NCBI GenBank assembly: GCA_002070215.1
Contig: MWCV01000011.1
Coordinates: forward strand, 1 to 64,000
Direction: 5' to 3'
DNA from: Chloroflexi bacterium ADurb.Bin180
GTDB taxonomy: Bacteria; Chloroflexota; Anaerolineae; UBA2200
Length of the DNA stretch: 64,000 nt
The notes beneath the pieces are model-generated. The model was not told the origin of the DNA. It ran no database searches and saw only the letters and a program-made list of their open reading frames with translations. Made by a program: the position numbers and the translations under genes. Within the stretch, counting starts at the first letter, position 1. Each line of letters opens with the position of its first letter. Of the stretch, positions 62,371 through 64,000 are shown piece by piece.

Positions 62371-63546
62371 ATGCGCAAGATCTATCTCGATAACGCGGCT
62401 ACCTCCTGGCCCAAACCCGGGCAGGTGACCGACGCGGTACTGCACTTTATGCGCGACGTTGGGGGAAGCGCCGGCCGCTCCGGCCACAGCCTGGCCGTCG
62501 AGGCGGGCCGCATCGTCTATGATACACGTGAAGCGCTGGCCACACTATTCAACGTCCCGGACCCGCTGTCCATTATCCTGACCAGCAACGCCACCGCAGC
62601 GATCAACCAGGCCTTGTTCGGACTGCTGCAGCCGGGAGACCACGTTGTAACCACCTCCATGGAGCACAACGCCGTAATGCGCCCACTGCGCTATCTGGAG
62701 TCGAAAGGCGTTCTGCTCACCGTCGTCCCCTGCTCACCTGACGGTCGCCTAGACGTCACCGACCTGGAAGCAGCGCTCCGGCCCGACACCAGACTGGTTG
62801 TGCTCAACCATGCCTCCAACGTCGTTGGCACAGTTCTGCCTGTCGCCGACGTAGGGCGGCTTACCGCCAGCAGAGGCATTCCCCTGCTGGTAGATGCTGC
62901 CCAGACCGCTGGTGCCAGGACGATTGACGTGCAGGAGATGCATATCGACCTGCTGGCTTTCACCGGACACAAAGCCCTGCTGGGCCCTCAGGGTACAGGC
63001 GGACTGGTCATTGGCAGTCGCATCGACCCCGCCGGGCTGGTGCCGCTGATTCGCGGCGGCACGGGCAGCCGTTCCGAGTTCGAGGAGCAGCCCGAGTTCC
63101 TTCCCGACCGCTACGAGTCCGGCACGGCCAATGGCCCCGGCATTGCCGGGCTGGGAGCTGGTGTCAAATACGTGCTTGAGCGCGGCATAGCGGACATTCG
63201 TGAACACGAGAGCAGGCTAACGGAGCAACTCATCCAGGGGCTGCAGGGCATTTCGGCTGTACGAGTCTACGGCTCGGGCGACGCATCGCAGCAGACGGCC
63301 ACGGTGTCGTTCAACATCCATGGACTGGAATCGTCGGAGGTTGCCCAGAGGTTGGATGACGAGTTCGGGGTGCTCTGTCGCCCGGGGCTGCACTGCGCAC
63401 CGTCGGCCCATCGTACTATCGGCACCTTCCCGCGGGGCACGGTTCGTTTCGGTCTGAGCGTGCTCAACACCGCCGAGGAGGTCGAGGCGGCCATCAGAGC
63501 CGTGAAGCACATCGCACGGGGCGCCCGCCAACAGGAGGGCCATTGA
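62371..63546 (+). CDS. Cysteine desulfurase (class V aminotransferase, SufS/Csd type)
   Basis: A 391-residue PLP enzyme. It opens MRKIYLDNAATSWPKP, has the PLP Lys in TGHKALLGPQGTGG, the Asp in VDAAQTAG and the reactive Cys in LCRPGLHCAP. It removes S or Se from cysteine or selenocysteine. The gene is followed with 4-bp overlap by DUF3343 and then selD, so I infer that it serves selenium (or sulfur) delivery to selenophosphate synthetase rather than general Fe-S assembly. No SufE/IscU gene is adjacent. Confidence 0.92.
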   Translation: MRKIYLDNAATSWPKPGQVTDAVLHFMRDVGGSAGRSGHSLAVEAGRIVYDTREALATLFNVPDPLSIILTSNATAAINQALFGLLQPGDHVVTTSMEHNAVMRPLRYLESKGVLLTVVPCSPDGRLDVTDLEAALRPDTRLVVLNHASNVVGTVLPVADVGRLTASRGIPLLVDAAQTAGARTIDVQEMHIDLLAFTGHKALLGPQGTGGLVIGSRIDPAGLVPLIRGGTGSRSEFEEQPEFLPDRYESGTANGPGIAGLGAGVKYVLERGIADIREHESRLTEQLIQGLQGISAVRVYGSGDASQQTATVSFNIHGLESSEVAQRLDDEFGVLCRPGLHCAPSAHRTIGTFPRGTVRFGLSVLNTAEEVEAAIRAVKHIARGARQQEGH

Positions 63547-63842
63547 ACGGTATCCGGGCCAGACTCAGGTCCGGCCGCCGCAAGGCCACCACGGGCGCAG
63601 CTTCGCCCCGAGTTGAGTACGCCGTGTTTCTGTTCGAATCCACGCAGGGCGCGATCAAGGCCGAGCGAGCGCTGTTGCGCGCCGGTTTGAGCATCAAGCT
63701 GATACCGACGCCTCGCCAGCTCAGCTCTGACTGCGGCACAGCCCTGCGCTGCGACTGGTCCGACGTGGATAGGGCAACGGAGGCCCTCCGGCTGGCCAGG
63801 GTGTCCTTTGCCAGCGTACACCAGATCAAGGATCAACTCTAG
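63543..63842 (+). CDS. DUF3343 (Se/S carrier-like) protein
   Basis: A 99-residue protein. Residues 25-99 match DUF3343: YAVFLFESTQGAIKAERALL, then PTPRQLSSDCGTALRC with the paired Cys. The family is regarded as a putative Se/S carrier and is often found near YedF/SelD. The N-terminal 22 residues are basic and Arg-rich. It overlaps the desulfurase stop and lies 15 bp before selD. The likely role is to pass selenium or sulfur from the desulfurase. Confidence 0.85.
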   Translation: MNGIRARLRSGRRKATTGAASPRVEYAVFLFESTQGAIKAERALLRAGLSIKLIPTPRQLSSDCGTALRCDWSDVDRATEALRLARVSFASVHQIKDQL

Positions 63843-63857
63843 AAGGAGGATTACGGC

Positions 63858-64000
63858 ATGGGCGACAAGTGCCAAGTCAAGCGCCTTACGGCCATGACCA
63901 CCGCCGCTGGCTGAGCGGCCAAGCGCGGCCCAGCCGCACTGGCGCAGGTTCTGCGCCCATTGAACAACCTGTTTCCGCCAGCGGATTACCCCGACCTCCT
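63858..64000 (+). CDS. selD: Selenophosphate synthetase with in-frame UGA (Sec), 5' part
   Basis: Runs off the right edge. From ATG 63858, with AAGGAGGATTACGGC upstream, the frame reads KRLTAMTTAAG, then TGA at 63912-63914, then AAKRGPAALAQVLRPL to the edge. This is the SelD N-terminus, where the catalytic Cys or Sec is followed three residues later by a Lys; here Sec19 and Lys22 take those places. The UGA thus encodes selenocysteine rather than ending an 18-codon peptide. SelD makes selenophosphate from selenide and ATP. A SECIS-like hairpin lies downstream. Confidence 0.93.
63941..63957 (+). promoter_or_regulatory. Bacterial SECIS-like hairpin in selD
   Basis: GGCGCAG (63941-63947) pairs perfectly with CTGCGCC (63951-63957), with loop GTT beginning 34 nt after the UGA. 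The loop contains the GU seen in E. coli fdhF SECIS, whose top is GCAGGUCUGC. An alternative longer stem (GCGGC 63915-63919 with GCCGC 63933-63937) sits between the UGA and this hairpin. Confidence 0.7.

Follow-up and report, generated by a model that had tools for sequence, protein, structure and literature searches.

Does the TGA at positions 63912-63914 end a short frame, or does it lie inside a longer gene as a selenocysteine (Sec) codon? The window, that is, the whole stretch of 64,000 nt that was analysed, corresponds to C11:1-64000 of a contig of 71,579 nt in total, in a genome of 3.13 Mb and 170 contigs. The initial annotation had read the frame from 63858 as encoding SelD on both sides of this TGA, at a site where Cys or Sec is required and with Lys three codons later. 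The features of the locus were as follows.

63844-63849, plus strand: AGGAGG ribosome-binding site, 8 nt 5′ of the selD ATG, predicted from the sequence
63858-64000, plus strand: 5′ part of selD, 47 codons; the full gene ends at C11:64910 on the same contig and encodes 350 residues
63912-63914, plus strand: in-frame UGA, codon 19, putative selenocysteine codon at the catalytic position, placed by the alignment of relatives
63921-63923, plus strand: Lys22 codon, three past the UGA; AA invariant in 80/80 sequences, third base G or A

Translation of the full contig gave a 350-residue SelD frame that starts at 63858, contains one internal TGA (codon 19), and ends at a terminal TGA (C11:64908-64910). 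In the window, the frame from 63858 to 64000 reads MGDKCQVKRLTAMTTAAG-U-AAKRGPAALAQVLRPLNN..., where U is TGA 63912-63914; up to the window end, the flanking residues are MGDKCQVKRLTAMTTAAG before this codon and AAKRGPAALAQVLRPLNNLFPPADYPDL after it. A frameshift or early stop after 64000 was sought on the contig and none was found, the frame being open to C11:64908. The full-length protein matched TIGR00476 with 378.9 bits (cut-off 125, E = 1.8e-113, residues 9-318) and NF002098 with 346.6 bits, above the cut-off of 299. Together with the continuous frame, the TIGR00476 match bore out the reading of SelD on both sides of the TGA. The catalytic pair was present as U19 and K22. Among named organisms, those closest to the protein were Chloroflexota MAGs (Anaerolineales UBA2200, 71% identity), and the genome is itself a MAG, probably of an uncultured Anaerolineae. 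A reading of the terminal TGA as a second Sec codon in selD was also considered and was rejected because the homologues end at the same point.

Table-11 ORF calling returned a 316-residue ORF from TTG 63960, without the catalytic N-terminus. The claim that ordinary calling stops at codon 18 and misses the gene was therefore correct for the N-terminus but not for the remainder, which is still called. The annotation of selD would be truncated, not absent, and N-terminal truncation by ordinary ORF callers is to be expected in selD of these Chloroflexota. The annotated selD of Terrisporobacter had already been called across its UGA. Exactly the same 316-residue ORF is what would be obtained if the UGA were a true stop or a sequencing or frameshift artefact, with a working SelD made from TTG 63960 and lacking the catalytic residue, or with a pseudogene. 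We consider this very improbable: the flanking residues of the UGA are conserved, dozens of families share the TGA, the upstream ATG is preceded by a strong AGGAGG, the RNA hairpins 3′ of the UGA are under selection, and the Sec machinery is complete (see below for the last two).

Most of the 100 nearest genomes carried a SelD of full length that was interrupted by a single in-frame TGA (E down to 1e-167). Column 19 was TGA in 87 of 89 aligned loci, some of which overlap, and the remainder were TGT (L098) and N (L092). The TGA loci were reduced to an alignment of 80 distinct 60-nt contexts (A1), in all 80 of which the third codon after the UGA was AAG or AAA. A second collection of 80 loci, partly overlapping the first, had 75 TGA, four Cys, and one N. 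The recurrence of SelD with TGA in the same column is far beyond chance. A Cys codon (TGT or TGC) occupied the site in five loci (L098, L132, L179, L180, and L186). The placement of the UGA at a Cys/Sec site with Lys three codons on was thus upheld by the TGA column, the few Cys homologues, and the invariant AAR codon.

Several loci in these collections were unusual. L098 (G054:C515) is a NifS-SelD fusion with Cys (TGT), and the same genome has a UGA-containing selD and is without a SelB match; NifS-SelD fusions are known (PMC4561486). L106 (G007:C278) carries a tandem pair of distinct selD genes, each with a UGA, approximately 1.2 kb apart, the second being cut by the contig end. Six SelD contigs (L127, L132, L136, L138, L139, and L145), with labels of Chitinispirillaceae, Armatimonadetes, Fermentibacteria, Eisenbacteria, and Acidobacteria, were approximately 60% identical to Anaerolineae SelD and may reflect either binning errors or gene transfer.

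The genome encodes a tRNA-Sec with anticodon UCA (C1:87963-88057, 71.9 bits), SelA (C3:5057-6133, 453.8 bits), and SelB (C1:106100-107992, 347.1 bits). The search for selA, selB, and selC therefore found all three, in agreement with the earlier expectation that the full Sec machinery was probable. A second candidate selenoprotein was the alpha subunit of formate dehydrogenase (FdhA; G000:C58:2042-4078, L113), with one in-frame TGA in the motif CARLUH. Its RNA has U17, G23, and U24, the same bases as E. coli fdhF, for which the SECIS base positions, including G23 and U24, have been described (PMC8659212). In a MAG, Sec genes that lie on other contigs might have been binned wrongly; the presence of SelB in 83 and of SelA in 88 of the 100 relatives speaks otherwise. 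SelB was found in 79 of 84 relatives with a strong SelD match versus 4 of 16 without one (Fisher test, P = 9e-9; 100 nearest genomes, residue 19 being resolved in part of the 84), and many of the exceptions to this co-occurrence were incomplete MAGs. Sec decoding thus occurs across a class of Chloroflexota (Anaerolineae) whose members are mostly uncultured.

The same genes bear on whether an amino acid other than Sec is inserted at the UGA, by Trp decoding or near-cognate readthrough. UGA=Trp codes exist, and the UGA of insect SPS1 is read without Sec (PMC4561486), but here TGA is the normal stop of genes, selD included, homologues have Cys (TGT or TGC) at this codon, the SECIS fits, and the genome encodes tRNA-Sec(UCA), SelA, and SelB. 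We regard such decoding as highly unlikely and retain Sec as the preferred reading of codon 19.

Two hairpins were recognized downstream of the UGA.

63922-63940, plus strand: hairpin H1, a second hairpin between the UGA and the SECIS, with the core GCGGC-CCA-GCCGC at 63925-63937, identified by conservation
63941-63957, plus strand: hairpin H2, candidate bacterial SECIS, GGCGCAG-GUU-CUGCGCC, MFE −12.1 kcal/mol, apical G/U at 63948-63949

When the U of the UGA is numbered nt 1, the H1 core of the window lies at nt 14-26 and H2 at nt 30-46. The bSECISearch model (PMC13188914) specifies a loop of 3-9 nt with G in the first two positions, a stem of 4-16 bp, a spacing of 16-37 nt, and an MFE of −7.5 or lower; H2, with its GUU loop, 7 bp, spacing of 33 nt, and −12.1 kcal/mol, conforms to it. 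Pairing of H2 was preserved in 90% of cells (80 sequences), versus 65 ± 1.6% in 1000 synonymous recodings (maximum, 70%), and slid registers of the hairpin paired in 27-59% of cells in the same 80 sequences. Compensatory changes were two-sided in 5 of 7 pairs, and the covariation score was reached by 0 of 500 shuffles. RNAalifold returned no consensus structure for the whole 80-sequence set, probably because some lineages have lost or shifted H2, and was replaced by counts of named structures with a synonymous-codon null. No Rfam family matched the SECIS region, and the fold of the window sequence alone was unexceptional (z about −1). An extended stem around H1, pairing nt 4-9 with nt 28-34, was rejected: it is unsupported because nt 6-9 vary while the opposite side is constant.

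Taken together, the gene is almost certainly selD, encoding selenophosphate synthetase, and the product is read as a selenoprotein with H2 as its SECIS; from the sequence evidence, we infer that Sec is actually inserted at codon 19. The initial annotation was supported in its selenoprotein reading, but it overstated the surprise, since the family has long been known: among prokaryotic selenoprotein families, that of Sec-containing SelD ranks second in size (PMC13188914), and the Sec-SelD described here is ordinary in kind. It shares with known Sec-SelD (PMC1794560, PMC13188914) the family, the Sec position, the Lys at +3, a SECIS just downstream, and the co-occurrence with SelA, SelB, selC, and Sec-FdhA. 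The protein shows no difference; what differs is a conserved two-hairpin arrangement 3′ of the UGA, which is unmentioned in the literature searched.

Some SelD genes were without the far H2 (L052, L071, L077, L079, L091, and L102), most of them having a G-bearing hairpin closer to the UGA, in several genes at a spacing of 16-20 nt; L091, for example, has a single hairpin with a GGU loop at a spacing of 20 nt. In these genes the SECIS may have moved. Among loci with Cys at the site, the usual H2 was absent from L179, L180, and L186. In L132, a Cys-SelD (TGT), both hairpins are still in place and are likely a relic, a fossil SECIS left by a recent replacement of Sec with Cys. Such conversions in SelD are already known, as are Cys genes that retain SECIS remnants (PMC1794560).

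Compared with the bacterial SECIS of the bSECISearch model and of E. coli fdhF, H2 is alike in its apical loop (G then U), its stem of at least 4 bp, its spacing of 33 nt, and its MFE under −7.5. It is unlike the fdhF type in two respects: the distance from UGA to loop is 14 nt greater in SelD than in FdhA, with an extra hairpin between, and the invariant U of SelD stands between two hairpins, not in a bulge inside the stem. The extra hairpin, H1, was found in 131 of 138 distinct UGA contexts, with a median footprint of 14 nt. Its sequences were replaced wholesale among relatives and the hairpin was kept (GUCGGC/GCCGAC, GUCAGC/GCUGAC, CUCCC/GGGAG, GACC/GGUC, and GCGAU/AUCGC); its register varies, and column-wise pairing reached only 63% of cells. 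When 136 SelD genes were scanned in sliding 18-nt windows against synonymous recoding, only two strong peaks were observed, at starts 12-14 (H1, z −12) and 29-30 (H2, z −21) relative to 51 downstream windows; many of these genes are related, and the depth of a peak is not readable as a probability. H1 is, judging from these comparisons, present in almost all these SelD genes and under selection at the RNA level.

The same scan of FdhA from the same genome group gave one peak, and a GGUCU loop was found at nt 22-26 in 26 of 26 sequences, the location of G23/U24 in E. coli fdhF (PMC8659212). The GGU loop of SelD starts at nt 36, versus nt 22 in FdhA. This offset of 14 nt equals the median H1 footprint, and H1 was therefore inferred to fold out the extra spacer; the G-bearing hairpin at a spacing of 16-20 nt in several genes lacking H2 fits the same idea. 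We tentatively propose that H1 may be a spacer hairpin that brings H2 to the standard effective distance, so that one SelB could read both SelD and FdhA, in an arrangement common to Chloroflexota and at least some Gammaproteobacteria and Clostridia; the idea is plausible and still somewhat short of an even chance. The comparison with other phyla consisted of two outgroup UGA-SelD genes from plasmid records, together with MAG contigs. The UGA-SelD of Terrisporobacter (Clostridia) has both hairpins, with an H2 unrelated in sequence (UUGCCCAA-GUU-UUGGGUAA), and that of Photobacterium has both with a shortened H2.

A competing role for H1 is that of a hairpin that slows the ribosome and thereby favours Sec insertion over release factor 2. 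H1 starts approximately 11 nt past the UGA, which is near the point of mRNA entry into the ribosome. Helper stem-loops are also found at the UGA of SPS genes and in eukaryotic selenoproteins (PMC4561486). The agreement between the 14-nt footprint and the 14 nt by which the SECIS loop is displaced from its FdhA position argues against this role, as do those genes lacking H2 in which a single G-bearing hairpin lies at the near position (GGU at a spacing of 20 nt in L091). We consider ribosome slowing a possible account of H1, and the less probable of the two. The spacer role, if true, would help to explain the variable UGA distance (16-37 nt) of published bacterial SECIS elements and would allow better selenoprotein prediction. 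No description of the two-hairpin arrangement in Sec-selD was found in the literature searched (mostly open papers without supplements); if anything here is new, it is the two-hairpin SECIS alone.

In the mechanism that we propose, SelB carrying Sec-tRNA(Sec) would be recruited by the SECIS hairpin H2 (nt 30-46) and would decode the UGA of codon 19 as selenocysteine. H1 (approximately 14 nt) would fold out the spacer, so that the effective distance between UGA and SECIS loop would match that in the FdhA of the same cell. Sec19 and Lys22 would lie in the N-terminal selenium-binding loop of SelD, and production of the selenium donor for Sec would therefore itself require a Sec-containing enzyme. 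Selenium would be supplied to SelD by the products of two upstream genes.

62371-63546, plus strand: NifS-like class V aminotransferase (TIGR01977 cysteine desulfurase family), co-directional with selD
63543-63842, plus strand: small DUF3343/Se_S_carrier protein (PF11823, profile match), overlapping the end of the nifS-like gene

The NifS-like enzyme and the DUF3343 protein probably release selenium and pass it to SelD. DUF3343 genes adjoining Sec lyase genes have been described (PMC5322559), and the locus resembles that cluster and the SclA cluster of Enterococcus (PMC13188914) in having a Sec-lyase/desulfurase gene and DUF3343 beside selD. It is unlike the SclA cluster in that the desulfurase scored 396.5 bits against the SclA model NF040779, under the cut-off of 525, and it was filed as TIGR01977 only. 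Where flanks were fetched, several of the closest relatives retained the order nifS-like/DUF3343/selD, which was lost or moved in distant ones. An antisense open frame lies opposite nifS-DUF3343-selD (window 63267-63998, minus strand; 447 codons on the full contig, L004:1267-2610) and is probably a shadow ORF arising from GC-rich coding sequence.
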